From an uncultured Pseudomonadales bacterium (GTDB lineage Bacteria > Pseudomonadota > Gammaproteobacteria > Pseudomonadales > Azotimanducaceae): 64,000 bases of DNA. Of this stretch, positions 5,225-63,702 are shown in pieces. Each line of letters begins with the position of its first letter. Positions within the stretch are counted from its first letter, which is position 1. Position numbers and translations under genes: made by a program. Under the pieces are notes generated by a model. That model had not been told where the DNA came from and ran no database searches. It saw only the letters and a program-made list of their open reading frames with translations. The DNA is taken from contig OY282455.1 in assembly GCA_958296195.1 (NCBI GenBank), positions 1,550,001 through 1,614,000 of the forward strand. Direction: 5' to 3'.

Positions 5225-6274
5225 TCAATGCGCCGCCAGCCGCTTGACGGCGGCTTCGTAGAATTCGTTGTTCATCTCCGCCGCGTTGTATTTTCGGCCA
5301 AGGAGATGGGAGACCACCGCGCCAGGGCACAGACCGCCGAAAGGCTCCTACACGGCGTCGTCCTTGTCCGTGGAGGCGCGGATGATCCGGTCGATGAATT
5401 TCAGTGGCTTTTGGCTGCCGTGCAGGCTGCGGAACTTGTACTTCATGCCGCTTCGCGCTCCCTGAATGCGCTCCGCTCCGCTGACTTGCGGCTCGCGCCA
5501 AACGTTGGTCACGCCCAACTCGCACTTGAACTTGGCGCGTAGCTTGGCCCACTTCCTTGCGGAGACCGGGGACTTGCCGTCCATGCTGAAGTAGGGCCGG
5601 CCTTGCGGGTTGCCGTGCCGATTGGCGTAGGCGGCCAGTTTTGCAAACGCCTCCTGCGGCGGGTAGTACCAAAGGTGGTCGGCGGTTAGGTATTTGCGCG
5701 TCGCCGCGTTCAATGTGCCGCAGGCCGCATTGGCTAGGCGCAGAGGCAAGCCGGACCGCTTCCACTCATGCCGCAGCCAAGCCTGCATGGAAAGGGTTGC
5801 GCCGCCAACCTTGAACTGGGCGGCCTTGACGTAGTGGACGCACACCTCCGTCACCACCGGGTACTTTCTTAGGGTGCGGGTATTGGCGTTGCCGGCGATG
5901 TGCCCCAGCCCTTTGTCCCAGATGTTGCAGCAGCGGTACTCCCAGCCATTGGCGATCAGCAGCGGATGCACCGCCGCCCAGCCGGCTTCGGTGTTCCAGA
6001 ACCAAAGCGTCGTTTCCGGCGTCGCCCGCTCGCTCCAAGCCTTGACATGGGGTTCGTACCAGTCCGCCAACGAGGCCGGGGTGTGTGCATCACCCGGAAA
6101 GCCAATGACGCCGTAGGGGCCATCGGCGACGATGCAGGTGGGCTCCGGCCAATCCGCATAGTGGTTTTCCGCCAACCCGAAGCGGATCGACACTGGCCCC
6201 CGAGCGTATTCCTGGTGCGCTTCCGGTGCCTGTCGGGGCGACGGGTCAGACAGTAGGGCTTGGACTTGCGCCAT
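5225..6274 (-). pseudogene. DNA N4/N6 methyltransferase with an internal amber stop
   Basis: From the ATG at 6274 the frame encodes 308 residues of a site-specific DNA methyltransferase, with catalytic motif IV as ADGPYGV (a DPPY variant) near residue 51 and HGSQKPLKFIDRII near the end. It is stopped by TAG at 5348-5350. Translated through that codon, the frame continues EPFGGLCPGAVVSHLLGRKY ... FYEAAVKRLAAH to a TGA at 5225. The expected motif in such enzymes is VWEPFGG (SAM-binding motif I region), so a TGG to TAG change has removed the Trp. The rest is intact, so the change is recent, an assembly error, or read through. No cognate restriction enzyme is visible nearby. Confidence 0.8.
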
Positions 6275-13800: not shown

Positions 13801-16800
13801 CTTCAATGAGGCCCGCGCATTATGCGCGGGAAGTTATGGTGGTGCATGGAGAGACTGTCTGGATTGAGTTCCTTCAATGAGGCCCGCGCATTATGCGCGG
13901 GAAGTTCTGGCTGCGGGTCCGTAGGGGCTGGCGGGGATGCTATCCTTCAATGAGGCCCGCGCATTATGCGCGGGAAGTTGAGCAAATAGACGCCTTCGTT
14001 GCCGACTGCAACACAACCTTCAATGAGGCCCGCGCATTATGCGCGGGAAGTTTAGTGGAAGAATCGAAGCTAAAGACTTCCGAACCAACCTTCAATGAGG
14101 CCCGCGCATTATGCGCGGGAAGTTGTCCAACATCTGGATCGGCACCACTGTCGAGGACCACCTTCAATGAGGCCCGCGCATTATGCGCGGGAAGTTTCCG
14201 AGGTCCCCGTCTGCGAATTGGTGGCCAGCCTTCCTTCAATGAGGCCCGCGCATTATGCGCGGGAAGTTCGCTGTCCTGGGCGTCGATCTTGACCCGCGTT
14301 GCGCCCTTCAATGAGGCCCGCGCATTATGCGCGGGAAGTTCCGACCGCGTCACCACGCCGGCCCGGCCGTGCGCGTCCCTTCAATGAGGCCCGCGCATTA
14401 TGCGCGGGAAGTTACGGGCTGGCACCCTTCGGCGCAGCAGCAGGGCCTCGCCTTCAATGAGGCCCGCGCATTATGCGCGGGAAGTTTCCCCGGCGACATC
14501 GATTGGAAAGCCGTCCACCTCGTCCTTCAATGAGGCCCGCGCATTATGCGCGGGAAGTTGAGGCAAGAATCTTGCGTTTGGCGGTTTAGCCTGGTCCTTC
14601 AATGAGGCCCGCGCATTATGCGCGGGAAGTTGGCTCATCGTCGCGCCCCAGGTGGTGGTCCTCTTCGACCTTCAATGAGGCCCGCGCATTATGCGCGGGA
14701 AGTTGCGTTCGCGCCGCCTCCTTTCGATTTCGCCTGTCCTCCTTCAATGAGGCCCGCGCATTATGCGCGGGAAGTTGCTGCGGGACTACCACAGGGCGCA
14801 GGTGGCCAAGCGCCTTCAATGAGGCCCGCGCATTATGCGCGGGAAGTTTGCGGCGGCCCTGCTGCAGTACGCCGAGAACCTGATCCTTCAATGAGGCCCG
14901 CGCATTATGCGCGGGAAGTTTGCGGCGGCCCTGCTGCAGTACGCCGAGAACCTGATCCTTCAATGAGGCCCGCGCATTATGCGCGGGAAGTTCCGGAAGC
15001 CCGTGCGGCCTGCACGGCAGCCAACTTCCCTTCAATGAGGCCCGCGCATTATGCGCGGGAAGTTCCCGTGACAATAGCCGCTTTCTGCGAAAGTTTGGTT
15101 CCTTCAATGAGGCCCGCGCATTATGCGCGGGAAGTTCGTGCGTGGCGGACCGCGAGATTCGAGCGTCGACGACCTTCAATGAGGCCCGCGCATTATGCGC
15201 GGGAAGTTAGCAGAAGCGGCAGCGCTGCGCCGTTCGGGATCTCCCTTCAATGAGGCCCGCGCATTATGCGCGGGAAGTTTTACGTAGGAAAGTTGACAAG
15301 AAATGTCGCAAATATGCCTTCAATGAGGCCCGCGCATTATGCGCGGGAAGTTAACGCCACCGGCGAAACGCTATGCGGCGAACCCATTCCTTCAATGAGG
15401 CCCGCGCATTATGCGCGGGAAGTTTCGCCTTCCTGCAGGCCCTGCCCCTTCGGGACCGTCCCTTCAATGAGGCCCGCGCATTATGCGCGGGAAGTTGGAC
15501 AGGGCTCCCTTGACGTGGCACAGGGACTCAATCCTTCAATGAGGCCCGCGCATTATGCGCGGGAAGTTCGGGAACACGTCGCCCAAGGTGGCGCCATCCC
15601 AAATCCTTCAATGAGGCCCGCGCATTATGCGCGGGAAGTTGTCATGGGAGTTGCCGAACGTCGCCAGCATTGTCCTCCTTCAATGAGGCCCGCGCATTAT
15701 GCGCGGGAAGTTGGGCTGTCCCTGGGCCTCGACTCGATTCAGATCGTCCTTCAATGAGGCCCGCGCATTATGCGCGGGAAGTTGAGGATGGGAGCCGCCG
15801 AATGGCTACTGTTACAACAACCTTCAATGAGGCCCGCGCATTATGCGCGGGAAGTTCCCACGGCAAGCGCCCCGGGTGGTGCGAATACATCCGTCCTTCA
15901 ATGAGGCCCGCGCATTATGCGCGGGAAGTTCGCGCCTGCTCCAGTTTCACGGTGTTGTCCCATGCACCTTCAATGAGGCCCGCGCATTATGCGCGGGAAG
16001 TTGGCCAAAAGCGGTTGCCGCCGCCCGGCGCCCGCTGCCTTCAATGAGGCCCGCGCATTATGCGCGGGAAGTTCGCACCACGTCGTTCCCGCGAACCCAC
16101 GGCCCTTCGTCCTTCAATGAGGCCCGCGCATTATGCGCGGGAAGTTAGCGTAGTTTCAATCTGCGGAAGACGGGCGAGGTTGGCCTTCAATGAGGCCCGC
16201 GCATTATGCGCGGGAAGTTTGCATGGCGACCATGTTCGGCGGTTGTGCGCCAGCGCCCTTCAATGAGGCCCGCGCATTATGCGCGGGAAGTTAACCAAAA
16301 GGAACGCAATTATGGCTACTGCTCGCAACCTTCAATGAGGCCCGCGCATTATGCGCGGGAAGTTAGCAACGCCATCTGCCGACGCATTGCGTCAATCTCC
16401 GCCTTCAATGAGGCCCGCGCATTATGCGCGGGAAGTTCTCGCTCTCAAGGCCGCCGCACTCGCCAAGCAAGTCCCTTCAATGAGGCCCGCGCATTATGCG
16501 CGGGAAGTTAACGAAAAGTTCGAGCCCGCCAAGCGAAAGCAGGTGCCTTCAATGAGGCCCGCGCATTATGCGCGGGAAGTTAAAGTGGAAGGCGCGGTCG
16601 CCGTCCATCAACCCCACCCTTCAATGAGGCCCGCGCATTATGCGCGGGAAGTTAGCAGTACGCAGTGGGGATCTGACATGGACCAATTTCCTTCAATGAG
16701 GCCCGCGCATTATGCGCGGGAAGTTGTACCTCAATTCGCGTCCCCGGCGGCGCCGGCGGCTCCTTCAATGAGGCCCGCGCATTATGCGCGGGAAGTTTAC

Positions 16801-56473: not shown

Positions 56474-57793
56474 GTGCTGAAGAGGGAAAGCAAGACGGAA
56501 GAATCCCGCCGTGCCGCCCTCATGGCCAGTGGCGGCGATTCCTCAGCCCTGACCAACGCCCATGTTCCGCCTTTCGCCTTGGCAGCGGGTCCGATCACCG
56601 AGGTCCATGCCTTTTGGCTGGCGGGCATGAGCTGCGACGGTTGTTCGGTGGCTGCGGTCGGCGCCAAGAACCCCAGCGTGGAGCAGCTGCTGAACGCCGA
56701 CATTCCCGGGCTGCCCAAGGTGGTTTTGCATCATCCGGTGCTGGCCGTGGAAGCCGGCGAGAAGTTCATGGAACCCTACTACCAAGCCGTTCGGGGTGAA
56801 CTTGATGCACCCTACGTGGTGCTCTACGAAGGTTCCGTGGCCGATGAGCAGATCGCCGGGGACTACGGTGGTTATTGGTCGGCGATGGGCATGGAGCAGC
56901 TTCCGGACGGCGCTTGGCGCCCCTACCCCACCGCGAAGATGCTGCGCGACCTTGCGCCCGCTTCCGCCGCGGTCATCGCTGTCGGCACCTGCGCCACTTG
57001 GGGCGGCATCCCCGCCGCCTTGGGCAATGTCACCCACGCCATGGCGACTATGGACTTTCTTGGCAAGGATTTCCGCAGCGCCTTGGGGCTGCCGGTCGTC
57101 AACATTCCCGGTTGCGCTCCCCTTGGGGACAACATCACGGAGACCATCGTTGCGGTGCTGATGTTTCTTGCCGGCGTGGGGCCGCTGCCGGAAGTCGACG
57201 AACTAGGCCGCCCTGCTTGGATGTTCCAGGACACGGTGCATCGCAACTGCACCCGGGCCGGCAACTACGAAGAAGGCATTTTTGCCGACAAATACGGCGA
57301 TCGGGAATGCTTGGTGGAGCTTGGCTGTTGGGGTCCCGTGGTGCAGTGCAACATGACATCCCGGGGTGCCATCGGCCACAACGGCGGTTGCATGAACACG
57401 GGCGGCATCTGCATCGGCTGCACCATGCCAGGGTTTCCCGACGCTTTCGCGCCCTTCTACAAGAAGCCGCCGGGCCGTTTCCTTTCCGCAACCACCAGTC
57501 GCTTGACGGGCAGTTTCATTCGCCCCTTGCGCCGTATTAATCAGCGCAAGGGCAATCTGACCCGTCGCTGGGAAAAAACTGGCCATATCCCCAGCGGCTG
57601 GGGGCATGTTGAAGTGCCCGGACCGTTCATGCGAACCGCTCATTACTTCTACAAGAAGCTGCAAAGTTGGGGAAGCGCCTATCATCCTGACGGTACCAAT
57701 TTGCAGCATCGGTTGCAGGCGGATGCGCATGGCTGCATCAAGGAAGCGGAAGAGCGGGCGAACCGGAGAATGCATCAGGAGGCCAGCGCATGA
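56474..57793 (+). CDS. hhyS: NiFe hydrogenase small subunit, group 1h-like
   Basis: 439 residues. Fe-S ligands are visible in GMSCDGCSVAA, VGTCATWGG and NIPGCAPLGDN (proximal cluster region) and in HRNC ... CLVELGCWGPVVQCNMTSRG and GGCMNTGGICIGCTMPGFPD (medial and distal clusters). There is no twin-arginine signal (the start MLKRESKTEESRR is not hydrophobic), so the enzyme should stay in the cytoplasm, as for the high-affinity actinobacterial-type group 1h enzymes. It passes electrons from the NiFe site towards the respiratory chain. The start is GTG 56474 or the ATG at 56522; neither has a strong Shine-Dalgarno. It overlaps the next gene by 4 bases. Confidence 0.9.
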   Translation: MLKRESKTEESRRAALMASGGDSSALTNAHVPPFALAAGPITEVHAFWLAGMSCDGCSVAAVGAKNPSVEQLLNADIPGLPKVVLHHPVLAVEAGEKFMEPYYQAVRGELDAPYVVLYEGSVADEQIAGDYGGYWSAMGMEQLPDGAWRPYPTAKMLRDLAPASAAVIAVGTCATWGGIPAALGNVTHAMATMDFLGKDFRSALGLPVVNIPGCAPLGDNITETIVAVLMFLAGVGPLPEVDELGRPAWMFQDTVHRNCTRAGNYEEGIFADKYGDRECLVELGCWGPVVQCNMTSRGAIGHNGGCMNTGGICIGCTMPGFPDAFAPFYKKPPGRFLSATTSRLTGSFIRPLRRINQRKGNLTRRWEKTGHIPSGWGHVEVPGPFMRTAHYFYKKLQSWGSAYHPDGTNLQHRLQADAHGCIKEAEERANRRMHQEASA

Positions 57794-58113
57794 ACGCCGG
57801 GGCGATCTACTTCTGGTGGGGCCTCTGGTTGGGTGTGGGTGGACTCATTTTGGTCGCGGCCGCGGCCTTGTTGATCGTTGTCCTCTTGCTGGCCCGTCGA
57901 ATTGCGGCGCTGGCGCAGACAGCTATTGAAACGGTGGGGCAGATAGAGGAAAACACTAAGCCCATTTGGCAGTTGAACGCCTCCAAAAAAGCCGCTAAGA
58001 ATTTACTGAGGGGCGCCGGTGCCATTGAGGACAACGCGGTGTCGATTTACAGTGCGCTAACCCAGCAGGACAGCGAAGGGACGACTGGGCAAAGAGGGAG
58101 GCCGGCAGCATGA
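57790..58113 (+). CDS. Small membrane-anchored protein 1 of hydrogenase cassette
   Basis: 107 residues, AGGAGG 10 bases upstream. An N-terminal membrane helix (WGLWLGVGGLILVAAAALLI then VVLLLARR) is followed by a helical cytoplasmic segment (IAALAQTAIETVGQIEENTK) and a polar tail. Start and stop overlap both neighbours by 4 bases (ATGA), so translation is coupled to the small subunit and to the next small protein. No family recognised. By analogy with HucM, which anchors and organises the mycobacterial Huc hydrogenase, it may tether the enzyme to the membrane or quinone pool. Confidence 0.75.
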   Translation: MNAGAIYFWWGLWLGVGGLILVAAAALLIVVLLLARRIAALAQTAIETVGQIEENTKPIWQLNASKKAAKNLLRGAGAIEDNAVSIYSALTQQDSEGTTGQRGRPAA

Positions 58114-58436
58114 TTCTGCCTGAGCATCCAGACCAAGCCGCCGAGTTCGTTTGGTGGACGTCGCTCGTGTTGGGGCTGGTTGTTAGCCTCGTGGTCGCCC
58201 TGCTGCTGTGGATGATCCACCGAGAGGCGGTCGTCGTCCAAAGGCGAGTCGCCAAAATATGGGAGTTGGGCCAGCGTGTGGCGAACAACACGATTCACAT
58301 TCCCATTCTGTATCCCATTAACCGCGTGGCGGAGGACATTCTACAAACGGCGTTGCGCATTGCCGAGGGTGCTTGTGGCATCGAATCGCACGTCCGCGAC
58401 TGTCCCGGCTGCCCTCACTGCCTGATGGAGCCCTGA
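58110..58436 (+). CDS. Small membrane-anchored protein 2 with CxxCxxC tail
   Basis: 108 residues, GGGAGG upstream. One membrane helix (WWTSLVLGLVVSLVVALLLW) is followed by helical IHREAVVVQRRVAKIWELGQ and a C-terminus VRDCPGCPHCLMEP. The CPGCPHC cluster, with an earlier Cys (GACGIES), could bind zinc or an Fe-S cluster. It overlaps the previous gene by 4 bases and precedes the next by 1 base. An electron-transfer or structural role at the membrane is possible; nothing more can be said from sequence alone. Confidence 0.75.
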   Translation: MILPEHPDQAAEFVWWTSLVLGLVVSLVVALLLWMIHREAVVVQRRVAKIWELGQRVANNTIHIPILYPINRVAEDILQTALRIAEGACGIESHVRDCPGCPHCLMEP

Positions 58437-58437
58437 C

Positions 58438-58731
58438 ATGATCCTTATGACGGCCTTGACGGTTCTCCTAGTCTTGGCTTTCTTCCTGGTGCTCGCCATC
58501 GCTCTGTTCAAGATCGGCACCGTGCTCCGCGCCATCGGCGGCGCCCCGGACAGCTTTCTGGCCAAGCTCCGGCTGGGCTTGCGCGCTATAGATTCGGAAA
58601 CAGGCCATCTGCGGTCCGAGATTCCCCGTTTGCACCAAGGGCTCGGGCAGATTGGCGATGGTTTGAAGACCATTGACGGACATCTGGCGGGCGTCATCCA
58701 AGCAGCTCAGGAACAGCGGAGGTACCAATGA
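58438..58731 (+). CDS. Small membrane-anchored protein 3 of hydrogenase cassette
   Basis: 97 residues, GGAG upstream. The start is almost entirely hydrophobic (MILMTALTVLLVLAFFLVLA then IALFKIG), then a long amphipathic helix (LRLGLRAIDSETGHLRSEIP ... LGQIGDGLKTIDGHLAGVIQ) whose heptad-like pattern suggests a coiled coil. Its stop overlaps the next start by 4 bases (ATGA). Same topology as its neighbours: one N-terminal helix and a cytoplasmic helical rod. Confidence 0.75.
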   Translation: MILMTALTVLLVLAFFLVLAIALFKIGTVLRAIGGAPDSFLAKLRLGLRAIDSETGHLRSEIPRLHQGLGQIGDGLKTIDGHLAGVIQAAQEQRRYQ

Positions 58732-59051
58732 TGGGCTTGGAAATGACGCTTCCAACCACGATTTACGCTATCTGGTGGACCGCCCTGCTGGTGGTCCTGC
58801 TGGTAATCGTGCCGCTTGCTCTGGCCTTGCTGCAGCGGACGCTGAAGGCCGCTTGGGCCATACGGCGGTACATGGCGGACATGCTCGCAGCCGGCGCAGC
58901 TATCGCCGAGAGCACTGGTTCGCTGGCGGCGTTGGAAGGTGTGACCACCGTAGCCGGCGACATGGTCGATTCCGGGAAGAGCTTGCGCAGTCGCAGCGCG
59001 GCCATCGCCGAGGTGCTGGTGGCGCGGGCCACTGCAGGGACGGCATCGTGA
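58728..59051 (+). CDS. Small membrane-anchored protein 4 of hydrogenase cassette
   Basis: 107 residues; GGAGG lies 5 bases before the first of two adjacent ATG codons. A membrane helix (IYAIWWTALLVVLLVIVPLA then LALLQRTLK) is followed by a helix rich in Ala and Gly (ADMLAAGAAIAESTGSLAAL) and a second helix (VAGDMVDSGKSLRSRSAAIA). The stop overlaps the next GTG start (GTGA). The segment after the membrane helix recalls the one in protein 1 (IEENTK versus IAESTG), suggesting that the cassette grew by duplication. Confidence 0.75.
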   Translation: MMGLEMTLPTTIYAIWWTALLVVLLVIVPLALALLQRTLKAAWAIRRYMADMLAAGAAIAESTGSLAALEGVTTVAGDMVDSGKSLRSRSAAIAEVLVARATAGTAS

Positions 59052-59332
59052 CCCAACTGCTGCTTTACCTGACTTTGGGCGCAATCGCGCTGATCGTTGG
59101 AGCCTTGGTGGCCTATCTGCTTGGCATCATCGCCGCACTCTGGAAAACCCGGCGGGATCTGGCCGCGCTCGTGGCTGGGTTGGCCACAGTGCGCGACCAC
59201 ACGCAACCCTTGTCAGGGCAAGTGGAGCAGATGAATCAGGGCTTGGCGCTGCTCCTCACGGATCTTCTTGCTGTGAACGGCAGCTTGGCGGCCATAGTCC
59301 GACTTGCAGCCCAAGCCAAGCGCGGCAAATAA
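59048..59332 (+). CDS. Small membrane-anchored protein 5 of hydrogenase cassette
   Basis: 94 residues from the GTG at 59048 (VTQLLLYLTLGAIALIVGAL), chosen because it overlaps the previous stop as GTGA; the frame is open further upstream only as a shadow of protein 4. One membrane helix continues VAYLLGIIAALW, then a helical region (TRRDLAALVAGLATVRDHTQ ... QVEQMNQGLALLLTDLLAV) with coiled-coil character. The large-subunit gene starts 14 bases later. Confidence 0.72.
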   Translation: MTQLLLYLTLGAIALIVGALVAYLLGIIAALWKTRRDLAALVAGLATVRDHTQPLSGQVEQMNQGLALLLTDLLAVNGSLAAIVRLAAQAKRGK

Positions 59333-59346
59333 TAAGGGAAACTGAC

Positions 59347-61224
59347 ATGTGCTTTCAGAATCTACCCATAGAATTCGACGAACAAGGCAATGCGCACCTG
59401 AAGGAAGGCGTCAGCAACCCCTATTCTTACGAAACCCGAACCGTTGAAGAAAGGGATCGGATGCTTGAGGAGATCGCCAAGAAAAACGGACAGATTCACG
59501 ATGTGGATTTTGACCCGGTGACCCGGGTGGCCGGAGCCTTGGCCTTTCATAGCACGGTGGATCTGGAAAACCGCAAGGTGCTGGACACAGCATCCATGGC
59601 CACTTTGTTCCGCGGCTACGAGGTCATTCTGCGGGGTCGGGACCCTAGGGACGCGGCCTTCATCAGCTCCCGCGCCTGCGGCGTGTGCGGGGGGGTGCAT
59701 GCCACTACTTCCGCCTTGGCCATCGAAATGGCGCTGGGCATCCGACCGCCGCCGCTAGGCATCGTCATTCGCAACCTGATGCTAAGCTGCGAATACCTGT
59801 ACGACAACCCACTGCATCTGTTCATTCTCGCGGGTCCCGACTTTTCCGAGGCGCTGGTCCGCGACACCAATCCCGAAGTCTGGCACCGGGCGCAGACCGC
59901 CAAAGCCAAATACACGGACATTCACGGCTATGTAACCATTGCGGAGATCATGACGGACTTGAACCCACTGACGGGCAAACTCTATCTTGAGGCGTTGGAG
60001 ATGACCCGGGTGGCCCGGGAAGCCTATGTTCTGCTGGGTGGCAAGTACCCGCACCCGGAAACGGTTATTCCAGGCGGCGTCACCACTACGGTCACCACCA
60101 CCACTTTAAGCGAGTTCTACCTGAAGTTGAAAACCTTCTTCGACTACAGCAAACGGTGCATCCGCATCTGGGACGATGTTTACGATTTCCTGTATGAAGC
60201 GAACCCAGAATATCGCCGGGTAGGTGAATTGCCCGTCAACATGGTCGATTTTGGGCAGTGGGACCACGAAGACCACTACGATGCGACCTACCAAAACTGC
60301 AACGCCTGGGGCGAGCGTCGTTGGTCAACGCCAGGAGCCGTGGTGAACGGCAAGCTGGCAACCACTCGGCTGACCGACCTGAACGTCGGCATTGAGGAAT
60401 TCATAGAGCATTCCTACTATGAGCAGTGGAGGGAATATCCGTTCAAGACGGACCCTTTGGGAAACCCTATCAGCCCCCACCACCCTTGGAACAAGACCAC
60501 AATACCCAAGCCGGGTGAACAAAATTGGAAGCAGCGGTACAGCTGGTCCTGCACGCCCACTTGGGATCGCCTAACCTTTGAGGCCGGAGCCTATGCCCGG
60601 GTGTATATTTCCGCCTTGGCGAAAAAGCTGCCGCCGAGCAACTATTTTTCGTCCACAGGCAGCAGCTTGGTGCTCAACATCCCCAAGGACAAGCTGCCGG
60701 CTGTGCAATTGGAATGGAAGGTCCCCAAGATGTGGAACGCCTTCGAGCGCAACCGCGCCCGAGCCTACGCCGTAGCGTTCAACATGATGGTGACCATGGA
60801 GAACTGGGTTCGCGCCCAAGACCTGCTCAAACGCGGCGAGACCCAAGTCGCCACACCCTTCAAAATTCCCAAGGATGGCCAGCACATAGGGGTCGGTTTC
60901 TGGGGTGCCGGCCGGGGTTTTTTGGCGCACTGGTGCGTCATCGAAAACGGTGTGCTGGCGAACTACCAGATTTCCACACCCTCTACGGTGAACGCTTGCC
61001 CCAAGACCCCTTGGGGGAAATGCGGGGCCTATGAACAGGCCGTGCTGAACACGCCCATCGTAGAATCCAACTTCAGCGACGCGGACGATTTCAAAGGCAT
61101 CGACATCCTCAGAACGCTGCGCAGCTTCGACCCCTGCATGCCCTGCACCACCCATGTCATGGTCGAAGGTTCCGACCGGGTGGTTACCCGGGAGGTGACC
61201 ACCTGCGCCTGCGGCATCGAATGA
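59347..61224 (+). CDS. hhyL: NiFe hydrogenase large subunit, group 1h-like
   Basis: 625 residues. SSRACGVCGGVHATTSALAI (about residue 108) is the N-terminal L1 motif (RxCGxCxxxH), and DPCMPCTTHVMVEG near the C-terminus is the L2 motif (DPCxxCxxH); the four Cys bind the Ni-Fe(CN)2CO centre. About 22 residues follow the final His and would be removed by an endoprotease after nickel insertion. It oxidises H2 at the dinuclear site. GGGA precedes the ATG at 59347. The stop overlaps the next gene by 4 bases. Accessory hyp genes are not in the window. Confidence 0.93.
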   Translation: MCFQNLPIEFDEQGNAHLKEGVSNPYSYETRTVEERDRMLEEIAKKNGQIHDVDFDPVTRVAGALAFHSTVDLENRKVLDTASMATLFRGYEVILRGRDPRDAAFISSRACGVCGGVHATTSALAIEMALGIRPPPLGIVIRNLMLSCEYLYDNPLHLFILAGPDFSEALVRDTNPEVWHRAQTAKAKYTDIHGYVTIAEIMTDLNPLTGKLYLEALEMTRVAREAYVLLGGKYPHPETVIPGGVTTTVTTTTLSEFYLKLKTFFDYSKRCIRIWDDVYDFLYEANPEYRRVGELPVNMVDFGQWDHEDHYDATYQNCNAWGERRWSTPGAVVNGKLATTRLTDLNVGIEEFIEHSYYEQWREYPFKTDPLGNPISPHHPWNKTTIPKPGEQNWKQRYSWSCTPTWDRLTFEAGAYARVYISALAKKLPPSNYFSSTGSSLVLNIPKDKLPAVQLEWKVPKMWNAFERNRARAYAVAFNMMVTMENWVRAQDLLKRGETQVATPFKIPKDGQHIGVGFWGAGRGFLAHWCVIENGVLANYQISTPSTVNACPKTPWGKCGAYEQAVLNTPIVESNFSDADDFKGIDILRTLRSFDPCMPCTTHVMVEGSDRVVTREVTTCACGIE

Positions 61225-61925
61225 CGCCGGTAGCCGCTGCGCCACGCGACGTTCTCATTGGCCTGGTTGGCTACTGCCAATTTGTGCCCAGCTACCCGTT
61301 GGGACCGGAACTCAAGGCGCGGCTGCGGCGGGTCGCTTGGCCGCAAAGCGACAATGTTTCGATTTCGGAGATGAACTGGAGCCCAATCGCCATCGTGCAG
61401 GAATTTCAGGCCAGTGCGATGGGCTTCGATCGGATTGTGCTGGTTGCCCTTGCGGACCGCCAGCTGCCCCCGGGTTCGGTGACCTGCCGCCGATGGAAGG
61501 GCGGTCAGCTCGCGGCCCAAGCGGTGCAGGAGCGGATTTTCGAGGCGGTCACTGGAGTGGTGAACTTGGACAACCTGCTAGTGATTGGCGAGCATTTCGG
61601 CATCTGGCCGCAGGAGGTGGTCGCCATTGAAGCTCAGGGACCCGAAGCGGGCCTTGGCGACTTCATTCTCTCCGAAGTGGCCGCTGGCCAGCAGGGCGCA
61701 ACGGCGGGTGTCGTCGGGCAGGGCCCCCCAAGTCCGGAGGCGGAGAGACTAATGGATGGCATCGCTGCGGCGGTGTGCAGGGCGGCGTTGGGCAAGACCT
61801 TGCAAGGGCCGGAATTCCCGGCGCTGACCGCTCAGGATCTCAAACCGCCAAGCGACCTGTGCCATACTAGGTTCAAGCAGCGGCGCCAACCCTCCGCCCC
61901 GTTCCACGACTCTCAGGCTATGTAG
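61221..61925 (+). CDS. Divergent hydrogenase maturation protease-like protein
   Basis: 234 residues. The layout faintly recalls HupD/HybD-type endoproteases: FDRIVLVALADRQLPPGSVT is like the YDxLILLDA...PG stretch, and VNLDNLLVIGEHFGIWPQEV then VAIEAQGPEAGLG resembles the later IYILGCEP region. The GxGNxLxxDDGxG nickel-binding start is replaced by LIGLVGYCQFVPSY, so protease activity is doubtful. It may be a maturation or assembly chaperone for this hydrogenase class. Coupled to the large subunit by ATGA. Confidence 0.55.
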   Translation: MTPVAAAPRDVLIGLVGYCQFVPSYPLGPELKARLRRVAWPQSDNVSISEMNWSPIAIVQEFQASAMGFDRIVLVALADRQLPPGSVTCRRWKGGQLAAQAVQERIFEAVTGVVNLDNLLVIGEHFGIWPQEVVAIEAQGPEAGLGDFILSEVAAGQQGATAGVVGQGPPSPEAERLMDGIAAAVCRAALGKTLQGPEFPALTAQDLKPPSDLCHTRFKQRRQPSAPFHDSQAM

Positions 61926-61939
61926 GGAGAAACCGCCCA

Positions 61940-62323
61940 ATGGCTCAGTCCGATGGCCAAGCGCAAACCCAAGGCGCCCTCAACAGAATGATCCTACGAG
62001 AGGAAGTTCTGCAAATCTGCTACTGGTATCAAGGCGAAGGGTTTGGCGACCTGTATGCTCCGGATACGCTGCAACCGTTCTTGAACAACAATCGTGCGGC
62101 CATCCAAGCGGCACTGCGATCATTGCAGGAGGGCGGCTATCTGGAAGCAGCGTCTGAAGCCATTTCCGCCTACCGGTTCACGGAAAAGGGAAGGAAGGAG
62201 GGGGGCCGTTTGTTTGCGGGGGAATTTTCCGACTACCAAAGAACCGGGCACGGCGAATGCGCAGCGGGATGTTGCGACGACGAAGACCACTCCGAGTGCG
62301 GGGACGACTGCACCTTGCACTGA
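61940..62323 (+). CDS. Winged-helix-like protein with Cys/His-rich acidic tail
   Basis: 127 residues. Residues about 20-85 (REEVLQICYWYQGEGFGDLY ... ALRSLQEGGYLEAASEAISA) look like a winged-helix domain ending in YRFTEKGRKEGG. The last 23 residues (GECAAGCCDDEDHSECGDDC then TLH) hold five Cys, two His and several acids, a probable metal-binding site. It could sense or carry nickel, iron or an Fe-S cluster for the hydrogenase. It lies 14 bases after the protease-like gene and appears to belong to the operon. Confidence 0.6.
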   Translation: MAQSDGQAQTQGALNRMILREEVLQICYWYQGEGFGDLYAPDTLQPFLNNNRAAIQAALRSLQEGGYLEAASEAISAYRFTEKGRKEGGRLFAGEFSDYQRTGHGECAAGCCDDEDHSECGDDCTLH

Positions 62324-62409: not shown

Positions 62410-63180
62410 GTGGCCGTGCAAAAGAAACAAACCACAACGAAGCTGTTGCCGGACAATCCTCAGCCCTTGGTCGGCTTCATGAGCAATGAGGCGCTGGACG
62501 CGAACCTCGCCCATCTGAATGCCTTGATTGCCGAGATGGAGGCGCTTCCCTTGCCTGATGTCAAGGAGAAGGTGTTCGCCATGCTGGCGGGGATCGATGC
62601 CATCCATCGAGAAGGATTGCGGCGGCTGGTTCGTTTGTTCAAGGAAGGGGTGCTCGAACAGGTCATCACCGACCCGGCCATTCACATCTTGATGGAGCTG
62701 TACGATCTGCTTCCAGGAAGCGGCACCCAAGAGCCGCCGGCCCCGCAGTCGGCAACAGGTGCGCACCGCGGCGACATTCCGGTCACGCAGGTTCCGACCG
62801 AGCCCATGCCGCAACCCAAGCCGGCGGCCGAGGGGCATCCCCACTGGGCGCCGGTCTTGGCCGACGCGGCGGAATGGCCTCCAGATGAAGTGCGCGTTCT
62901 GAGGTTGGAAGGGCGAGAAGTGGTACTCTGCCGGGTTGCGGACGAGATCTTCGCGTTGGACAACGCCTGTGCTCGGGATTCCTCCAGTTTGGTGGGGGCG
63001 ACGCTGAACGGCTTCACCCTGTGCTGCCCGAATCATCGGGGCTGCTACTACGACGTTCGCAACGGCACCGAGCTGGCGAGCAACCGGTCCATCACCTGCT
63101 ACCCGGTGCGGGTCGTCGCCAGCGGCGCGGTGATGGTCGGTTTGGGCATGGCTTTCAAGCCCAAGCTGCCGGCGTTCTGA
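62410..63180 (+). CDS. Rieske-like protein of the hydrogenase operon
   Basis: 256 residues from GTG 62410 (a second GTG at 62416 is also possible). Residues 1-100 are helical with a Pro-rich linker (PVTQVPTEPMPQPKP). The C-terminal about 110 residues are a Rieske-type fold: ALDNACARDSSSLVGATLNG then FTLCCPNHRGCYYDVRNGTE. Canonical CxH...CxxH ligands would be Cys187/His189 and Cys206/His209, but residue 189 is Arg, so one His is missing. HucE/HhyE Fe-S proteins have been proposed to relay electrons from related hydrogenases in mycobacteria; this could be the counterpart with an altered or lost cluster. Confidence 0.75.
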   Translation: MAVQKKQTTTKLLPDNPQPLVGFMSNEALDANLAHLNALIAEMEALPLPDVKEKVFAMLAGIDAIHREGLRRLVRLFKEGVLEQVITDPAIHILMELYDLLPGSGTQEPPAPQSATGAHRGDIPVTQVPTEPMPQPKPAAEGHPHWAPVLADAAEWPPDEVRVLRLEGREVVLCRVADEIFALDNACARDSSSLVGATLNGFTLCCPNHRGCYYDVRNGTELASNRSITCYPVRVVASGAVMVGLGMAFKPKLPAF

Positions 63181-63183
63181 GGG

Positions 63184-63702
63184 ATGCCGGTGCCCGGCCC
63201 TTCCATATTGATCGCCGGAGTCGGCAACGTGCTCCGCGGCGACGACGGGTTCGGCATAGAACTGGCCAACCGCCTGCTAGCGACAAGCGATCTGCCGCCG
63301 TCGGCGAAGGTCATTGAAACCGGCATCGGGGGCATGACGCTGGTTCAGGAGGTTATGCTCGGCTACGACCTCCTGATCCTGCTCGACGCCTACCGGAACA
63401 ACGGCAAGCCTGGGGAACTACACCTTTTGCAACCAGTCGTCTCCGACCTCAGCGACCTGTCCGTTCATGAACTGAGGGACTATTTTTCCGATACCCACTA
63501 TGCGACGCCGATGCGGGCACTCAATTTGCTGGCGCAAATGCGCAAGCTGCCCGAAACGATCTATATTCTTGGTTGCGAACCGGAAAGCCTCGACGGCTTG
63601 AGGATCGGCCTAAGCCCAGCTGTGGCCGCGTCCGTTGACAAGGCGGTCCGCATGGCGCTGCGCTGCGTGGAGCGCCATCTCAGTTCCAAATTCGCCGAAT
63701 AG
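63184..63702 (+). CDS. Hydrogenase maturation endopeptidase (HupD/HybD family)
   Basis: 172 residues. ILIAGVGNVLRGDDGFGIEL is the complete nickel-binding start of the family (GxGNxLRGDDGxG), with the Asp that coordinates nickel; LVQEVMLGYDLLILLDAYRN carries the second acidic site and TPMRALNLLAQ the region around the conserved His. It cleaves the C-terminal tail of the large subunit after the NiFe centre is assembled. It starts 4 bases after the Rieske-like gene, and its presence agrees with the tail seen on the large subunit. Last gene of the operon in the window. Confidence 0.93.
   Translation: MPVPGPSILIAGVGNVLRGDDGFGIELANRLLATSDLPPSAKVIETGIGGMTLVQEVMLGYDLLILLDAYRNNGKPGELHLLQPVVSDLSDLSVHELRDYFSDTHYATPMRALNLLAQMRKLPETIYILGCEPESLDGLRIGLSPAVAASVDKAVRMALRCVERHLSSKFAE

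Follow-up and report, generated by a model that had tools for sequence, protein, structure and literature searches.

Layout of the locus and assignment of its hydrogenase

The window (the whole stretch of 64,000 nucleotides that was analysed) contains a hydrogenase operon in which five small genes lie between those of the two enzyme subunits. Its features are listed below, and the counts given for the downstream genes refer to the 65 group 1l loci in which no less than 4.5 kb follows hylL.

56474..57793, + strand: hylS, hydrogenase small subunit (439 aa, GTG start; PF14720 and PF01058 above cut-off)
57790..58113, + strand: hylTM1 (o1), 107 aa, type A, one membrane helix
58110..58436, + strand: hylTM2 (o2), 108 aa, type A, C-terminal H-x4-CPGCPHC
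58438..58731, + strand: hylTM3 (o3), 97 aa, type B
58728..59051, + strand: hylTM4 (o4), 107 aa (106 if the start is 58731), type A
59048..59332, + strand: hylTM5 (o5), 94 aa, GTG start, type B
59347..61224, + strand: hylL, hydrogenase large subunit (625 aa; RACGVCGG and DPCMPCTTH; PF00374, E 2.7e-77; group 1l clade)
61221..61925, + strand: conserved operon protein, 234 aa (63/65 1l loci)
61940..62323, + strand: conserved operon protein, 127 aa, with a Cys/His-rich C-terminus (57/65 1l loci)
62410..63180, + strand: protein with a C-terminal Rieske [2Fe-2S] domain, 256 aa (PF00355, E 5e-7; 45/65 1l loci)
63184..63702, + strand: hydrogenase maturation protease, 172 aa (PF01750, E 8.5e-15; 59/65 1l loci)

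For the 234-aa operon protein neither a Pfam nor a PDB match was found at E 1. An earlier note on this DNA had described five consecutive genes that split the subunit genes, and this is borne out by open reading frames of 94-108 aa on the + strand at 57790-59332. The 4-base overlaps that it had seen between them are present at hylS/o1, o1/o2, o3/o4 and o4/o5, but o2 and o3 lie one base apart; o5 is followed by a gap of 14 bases before hylL. Among 49 unique five-gene cassettes, read with script-chosen starts, gaps of up to 30 bases outnumber overlaps of 1-4 bases at each counted junction (24 versus 21 at o4/o5, 32 versus 7 at o1/o2). As a consequence, junction overlaps are not a conserved trait.

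The subunit genes had been given the hhy names of group 1h, and these do not hold. In a quick hylL tree built with no bootstrap and leaving out two wrongly framed rows (L010 and L034), the window groups with 81 other 1l-type rows, on a branch separated from three 1h rows with an SH-aLRT of 100. Marinovum algicola, named as a 1l carrier in the available text of PMC10305171, sits inside the 1l side of this tree. Group 1h can be ruled out, since identity to the nearest 1h large subunits is about 40% and they stand apart in the tree. The cysteine motifs of the NiFe site (RACGVCGG and DPCMPCTTH) are intact in HylL and match those of the Marinovum and Hymenobacter rows, and the layout of the window shows the published 1l feature of five short transmembrane proteins between the subunit genes. 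The window enzyme is almost certainly a group 1l [NiFe]-hydrogenase and its five small genes hylTM1-5. Enzymes of this group are described as widespread in soil and sea in the available parts of PMC10305171 and PMC9561532.

The best PDB match of HylS is HofK of Cupriavidus (5aa5_A, E 9e-102). We found no RR-x-[FLIVM] motif in its first 60 residues, and on this ground an enzyme exported through Sec or Tat was rejected.

The HylTM proteins and their cassette

The HylTM proteins of group 1l loci are of two types, carry one N-terminal membrane helix each followed by amphipathic helices, and stand in a fixed order. The types are paralogous, A comprising TM1, TM2 and TM4 and B comprising TM3 and TM5: hhalign yields 98.4-98.6 within A and within B, and 17.8 for o2 versus o3. 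As the earlier note had stated, each of o1-o5 is strongly hydrophobic in one stretch near its N-terminus (best 19-residue Kyte-Doolittle mean 2.75-3.09). Lysine and arginine are richer after this helix than before it in 47, 45, 46, 49 and 44 of the 49 cassettes for o1 to o5, respectively. The soluble parts are amphipathic: every segment shows a helical power above that of its shuffles, with the opening part of o1 as the weakest case (93/2000) and at most 28/2000 elsewhere. Single-chain AlphaFold models consist of helices only (mean pLDDT 86.7 for o2 and 90.4 for o3); the 'helical rod' noted before is in each predicted as two helices rather than one, at residues 7-59 and 64-97 in o2 and at 2-35 and 40-96 in o3. 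The pattern C-x2-C-P-x-C occurs in 38/49 HylTM2 proteins, each with a His 3-6 residues ahead of the first Cys, and no CxxC was found in the cassettes' four remaining families. None of the five window proteins matches the isp1 b-type cytochrome or isp2 iron-sulfur families in Pfam or NCBIfam.

HylTM-type genes are present in 75 of 81 group 1l loci. Where hylS is in view (70 loci), the gap between the subunit genes holds five of them in 52 loci and four in 8; among the remaining 10, 7 carry HylTM genes elsewhere in the stretch examined, so that relocated copies occur in loci with adjacent subunit genes. The order is A-A-B-A-B in the five-gene form and A-B-A-B in the four-gene form. A possible joining of hylS to a HylTM gene in the four-gene locus L121 was ruled out, since HylS stops at 5715 and the first HylTM is separate, running from 5766. 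HylS C-terminal length does not distinguish the two kinds of locus: it spans 83-136 residues where the cassette lies in the gap (L121 left out) and 101-123 where it does not (leaving out the misread L122).

Leave-one-out profile HMMs assigned all 245 proteins of the 49 cassettes to their own position, and no score above 14.6 bits was seen among 9398 control frames, which lay outside the gap or on the opposite strand of 60 loci with a cassette. Together, these results rule out chance or stray open reading frames. The association with the hydrogenase claimed earlier is supported by the searches: the o3 profile has matches in 2 of 369 genomes of the class, precisely those with an intact 1l hylL, while the hylL query matches 149 of them at E 0.001. 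No match to o2 or o3 was found in 72,556 plasmids, and no HylTM match above 12 bits in three 1h loci. Homologous cassettes unrelated to hydrogenases, which by the terms of the earlier note would refute its interpretation, were not encountered in the sequences searched.

A candidate membrane stalk and its alternatives

With a probability of about 0.6, we propose that the main role of HylTM1-5 is to tether a cytosolic hydrogenase, as a hetero-oligomeric membrane stalk built of helices, and we give the same value to the explanation as a whole, that is, group 1l HylTM1-5 together with a tether or stalk. Held together by their membrane helices and by the coiled helices at their C-termini, the five proteins would build a single hetero-oligomer that stands in the cytosol, each HylTM having its N-terminus outside and its C-terminus inside. 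This oligomer would grip HylS and anchor at the membrane a hydrogenase that has no Tat signal and would otherwise be soluble, so that electrons of H2 could enter the respiratory chain. Judged from sequence, a cytosolic form of the membrane stalk that the earlier note had suggested for an otherwise soluble enzyme appears reasonable because the cassette is tied to a hydrogenase, each protein has one membrane helix with a positive C-terminal side, the soluble helices are amphipathic and there is no Tat signal. Our literature searches found no demonstration of HylTM function, nor did the available text of PMC10305171 and PMC9561532 yield an explanation of how 1l enzymes attach to the membrane.

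Several observations count against this explanation. According to the available part of PMC10305171, Marinovum algicola and Robiginitalea biformata show no substantial H2 consumption in culture. In Thermoleophilia and two Acidobacteriota loci the HylTM set is not between the subunit genes, and no HylTM gene was found in 6/81 loci (L102, L112, L113, L118, L119 and L123), of which L102 (9.4 kb) and L112 (6.3 kb) are short contigs. The single-chain AlphaFold models have a low pTM (0.51 and 0.42). Finally, there is a weak Pfam likeness to generic anchor families among relatives (DUF948 in 11/28 o5, HemY_N in 9/28 o4); in the window, o5 reaches 20 bits against DUF948 and o4 18.6 bits against HemY_N, below the curated cut-offs of 37.2 and 31.

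The amphipathic character of the soluble helices would also suit a quinone conduit, in which A and B helices form a hydrophobic tube that lets quinone leave the membrane and arrive at HylS and its distal cluster, an idea put forward for HucM in Huc. In the models, the soluble helices of o2 (23 + 34 residues) and o3 (57) would reach about 85 Å if fully extended (1.5 Å per residue), near the 94 Å quoted for Huc in the available text of PMC10017518. On the other hand, a packed five-helix bundle is not necessarily hollow, and HucM is described in that text as a homotetramer without a membrane helix. HucM homology was sought by profile (o1-o4) and by fold (o2 and o3) and not found: no Huc chain appeared among the PDB matches listed for the profiles (one list holding the best 60 of 116) or among the PDB fold matches of the models, with the reservation that the library may lack HucM. 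We regard such a conduit as possible but doubtful. Unlikely, too, is that the amphipathic cytosolic helices of the A-A-B-A-B (or A-B-A-B) bundle form a tube lifting quinone out of the membrane to a soluble high-affinity hydrogenase, with a putative metal site on HylTM2 at its far end; if true, it would be a second answer, independent of HucM, to the same problem as in Huc.

It is improbable that the HylTMs are assembly or membrane-targeting factors for maturation, absent from the finished enzyme. They do share an operon with the maturation protease and conserved proteins, but three 1h loci with NifU, HypF and a maturation protease have no HylTMs, and five strictly kept paralogues are more readily understood as occupying set positions in a complex than as a chaperone. 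The restriction of the His-Cys3 motif to HylTM2 could point to an electron relay, in which a metal or cluster bound by the motif would hand electrons on from HylS toward the membrane. Its absence from 11/49 five-gene cassettes means that this would not be general, and a single site at the end of one protein makes no chain, so that we give this relay very little credence.

As a guide to how 1l enzymes reach the membrane, the family comparison provides a concrete plan: helices of two types in a fixed order, a form reduced to four genes, and a single protein whose motif resembles a metal site. With it, the way in which oxidation of trace H2 is coupled to respiration becomes accessible to direct experiments in a handful of model strains.

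Comparison with known systems

Five small membrane proteins in the operon are a known hallmark of group 1l hydrogenases. The earlier note had not seen such a device described, but PMC9561532, citing Ortiz et al. 2021, already names HylTM1-5 as five short transmembrane proteins between the 1l subunits; placement and hydrogenase group are the same, and we found no feature separating the window from the account available there. The A/B paralogy, the four-gene form, the relocation and the His-Cys3 motif do not appear in the text available there, though Ortiz et al. 2021 or supplementary material may already contain them. The group 1m cluster in the same source, compared by its available description, encodes two small one-helix proteins (82-92 aa) which, unlike the HylTMs, lie outside adjacent subunit genes.

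The premise that subunit genes are normally adjacent has a published exception in the Isp proteins of groups 1e and 1g (PMC11018855, available text). There, the interposed genes encode a b-type cytochrome with several helices (Isp1) and an iron-sulfur protein (Isp2), whereas the HylTMs are single-helix proteins without a match to any haem or cluster family. HofGK of Cupriavidus (group 1h, PDB 5aa5) is the closest solved structure for both window subunits, with a large subunit about 41% identical; in the three 1h loci examined, the subunit genes are adjacent and HylTM genes are lacking.

In function, the HylTMs would resemble HucM, a helical protein that ties a soluble high-affinity hydrogenase to the membrane and shares amphipathic coiled helices with the HylTMs. 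As described in the available text, HucM is one protein of 188 residues, present in four copies and peripheral to the membrane, in contrast to five HylTM proteins with a membrane helix each. The proposed HylTM stalk would work like HucM, yet is probably not its homologue.

The hydrogenase operon and its group

The subunit genes of the hydrogenase lie apart in the window:
56474-57793, hydrogenase small subunit gene
59347-61224, hydrogenase large subunit gene

Between them we found five ORFs, o1 to o5 (HylTM1 to HylTM5), of 107, 108, 97, 107 and 94 codons, each encoding one N-terminal hydrophobic helix, which confirms the earlier observation that five small one-helix genes split the subunit genes. 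The four-base overlaps described with it are present between the small subunit gene and o1 and at o1/o2, o3/o4 and o4/o5, but o2 and o3 are one base apart. The large subunit gene is followed by genes for conserved proteins of 234 aa and 127 aa, a Rieske-domain protein and a hydrogenase maturation protease. The 127 aa protein (61940-62323), whose end is rich in Cys and His, has no Pfam match at E 1 and is present in 57 of the 65 group 1l loci having enough downstream sequence. Past the end of the window, hypF lies on the minus strand (locus L004, 12836-15223; PF22521 and others) and is followed by an ORF (15370-16371) that we take to resemble an IS transposase. The contig is a single one of 4.31 Mb, and a PF00374 search of the genome confined large-subunit matches to this locus.

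Relatives of the large subunit were sought in 84,980 named species genomes, with three aligned large subunits as the query, two of them intact and the third degenerate. This yielded 105, and we retained the 80 best, which show 57-83% identity over the best segment. Among the relatives is Hymenobacter roseosalivarius, presumably linked to group 1l. Marinovum algicola FF3, a named carrier of group 1l in PMC10305171, was also found. The closest solved structures, HofG and HofK (5aa5), come from Cupriavidus necator, whose enzyme PMC9561532 places in group 1h, but the window's large subunit shares only about 40% identity with 1h plasmid records. A maximum-likelihood tree, built quickly and without two misread rows, has a branch with SH-aLRT 100 that parts 82 1l-type rows from three 1h rows. 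Given this identity and this tree, the 1h (hhy) label of the earlier note has to be abandoned, understandable as it was because HydDB is unable to separate 1l from 1h (PMC11519504).

Conservation of the cassette and its link to the hydrogenase

We examined 81 loci (80 relatives plus the window), 70 of them with the small subunit gene in view. Five HylTM genes occupy the gap in 52 of these 70; exactly five gap ORFs are found in 50, and L090 and L091 carry one extra ORF matching none of the families. Eight loci have four HylTM genes in the gap (seven called by script, L121 from reading its sequence), and ten have none there. Seven of these ten carry HylTM-type genes in another part of the fetched stretch: L101 and L105 (Acidobacteriota) have a set of four upstream of the small subunit gene, L116, L117, L120 and L122 (Thermoleophilia) have all five genes with their order kept, and L111 has four frames on the opposite strand. 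No HylTM gene was detected in the gap or the rest of the fetched stretch of L112, L118 and L119. When the small subunit is not in view (11 loci), HylTM genes directly precede the large subunit in eight, and none was found in L102, L113 and L123. The HylTM profiles were trained on 49 of the examined cassettes and, because matches inside these arise by construction, the fair test is leave-one-out placement, which was correct for 245/245 proteins. The 9398 control frames, taken in 60 loci from the opposite strand or from beyond the gap, had a maximum score of 14.6 bits.

The link was also examined in 369 genomes of the window's class. Some relative of the large subunit is present in 149 of them, and two, the window's genome and G416, have a good 1l match; G342 has a degenerate match and G284 a 1h-like one. 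The o3 profile matches exactly the window's genome and G416. Together with the presence of HylTM genes in 75 of the 81 loci, this upholds the claim that the cassette is tied to the hydrogenase. Within the window's genome, matches of the o2 type are confined to the cassette, and neither o2 nor o3 has a match at E 0.01 in 72,556 plasmid records. The only full-length match among 200 genomes of the family is the window itself, one other genome showing short pieces about 40% identical, and the window is likewise the only match at E 1e-100 in a phylum sample of 398 genomes. This rarity suggests horizontal gain.

Several loci deserve mention on their own. Two genome bins hold two 1l large-subunit genes each, L051 and L052 in Paracoccaceae BWSM_50 and L113 and L117 in Thermoleophilaceae YX2bin39; the cassettes of L052 and L053 are identical, with genomes named differently. 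Three Thermoleophilia loci show a second small-subunit-like match, 53-54% identical and ~3.7-3.8 kb upstream of the first (L119 2017-3120, L120 1972-3075, L122 1973-3076). Finally, two genes that resemble the large subunit (L038 9623-11455, in G342; L123 7001-8698), with about 51-59% identity to that of the window, pair in the tree and carry STASGICGG where the first NiFe cysteine motif would stand. Neither stretch has a HylTM gene over 12 bits; L123 yielded no small subunit either, and L038 was read by eye alone. These genes may represent a relative of hydrogenases that has taken on a different function.

Two paralogous types and their predicted topology

The five proteins belong to two paralogous types, A (TM1, TM2, TM4) and B (TM3, TM5). 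Profile comparison gave 98.4 for TM1-TM2, 98.5 for TM2-TM4 and 98.6 for TM3-TM5, against 17.8 across types (TM2-TM3). The five-gene order is A-A-B-A-B, and most four-gene loci, likewise L101 and L105, are A-B-A-B. L107 reads A-A-hybrid-B, its third gap gene (112 aa) scoring 52 bits with the o3 profile and 38 bits with that of o4, as if o3 and o4 had been joined through a deletion.

Positive charges are commoner after the helix than before it in 47, 45, 46, 49 and 44 of 49 proteins (o1 to o5). By the established positive-inside rule, the C-terminal part is predicted to lie in the cytosol. No twin-arginine motif is present among the first 60 residues of the small subunit, HylS, which argues that the hydrogenase should be on this same cytosolic side. 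The C-terminal parts show helical hydrophobic periodicity above shuffles. In seven of the eight segments 0-28 of 2000 shuffles were equally strong, against 93 of 2000 in the weakest, the first part of o1. Single-chain models are all-helical for o2 (helices 7-59 and 64-97; mean pLDDT 86.7, pTM 0.51) and o3 (2-35 and 40-96; 90.4, 0.42). In 38 of 49 cassettes the end of HylTM2 carries C-x2-C-P-x-C, always with a His 3-6 residues ahead of it; the motif is absent from the other 11, and the remaining four protein families of these cassettes are free of CxxC. Weak Pfam matches were obtained to DUF948 (11/28 o5) and HemY_N (9/28 o4), the window's o5 and o4 scoring under the curated cut-offs.

Possible role and comparison with Huc

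Starting from the observed genes, order, paralogy, topology signal, helix propensity and linkage to 1l enzymes, we propose that the HylTM proteins would form a hetero-oligomer held together by five membrane helices, whose cytosolic helices would grip HylS and act as a tether. A quinone path through the set is a further and more tentative step. At full extension the soluble helices of o2 and those of o3 would each measure about 85 Å, near the 94 Å that Huc spans (PMC10017518), but the o2 and o3 models do not constrain the inter-helix angle. The tether is the reading we favour.

The earlier note had not seen such a device described. The arrangement is in fact already known and named (HylTM1-5, PMC9561532), and the window's cassette is an instance of it in one more organism. 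We found no functional study of HylTM in the literature searched, which covered few subscription papers and preprints. The remaining interest is in the function of the set and its A/B anatomy. HucM, the helical membrane-associated protein of Huc, was not matched by the o1-o4 profiles (among the best 60 of 116 matches for o3) nor by the o2 and o3 models. Its role is alike to the one proposed here, but HucM is one 188-residue protein present in four copies, whereas the HylTM set consists of five proteins.
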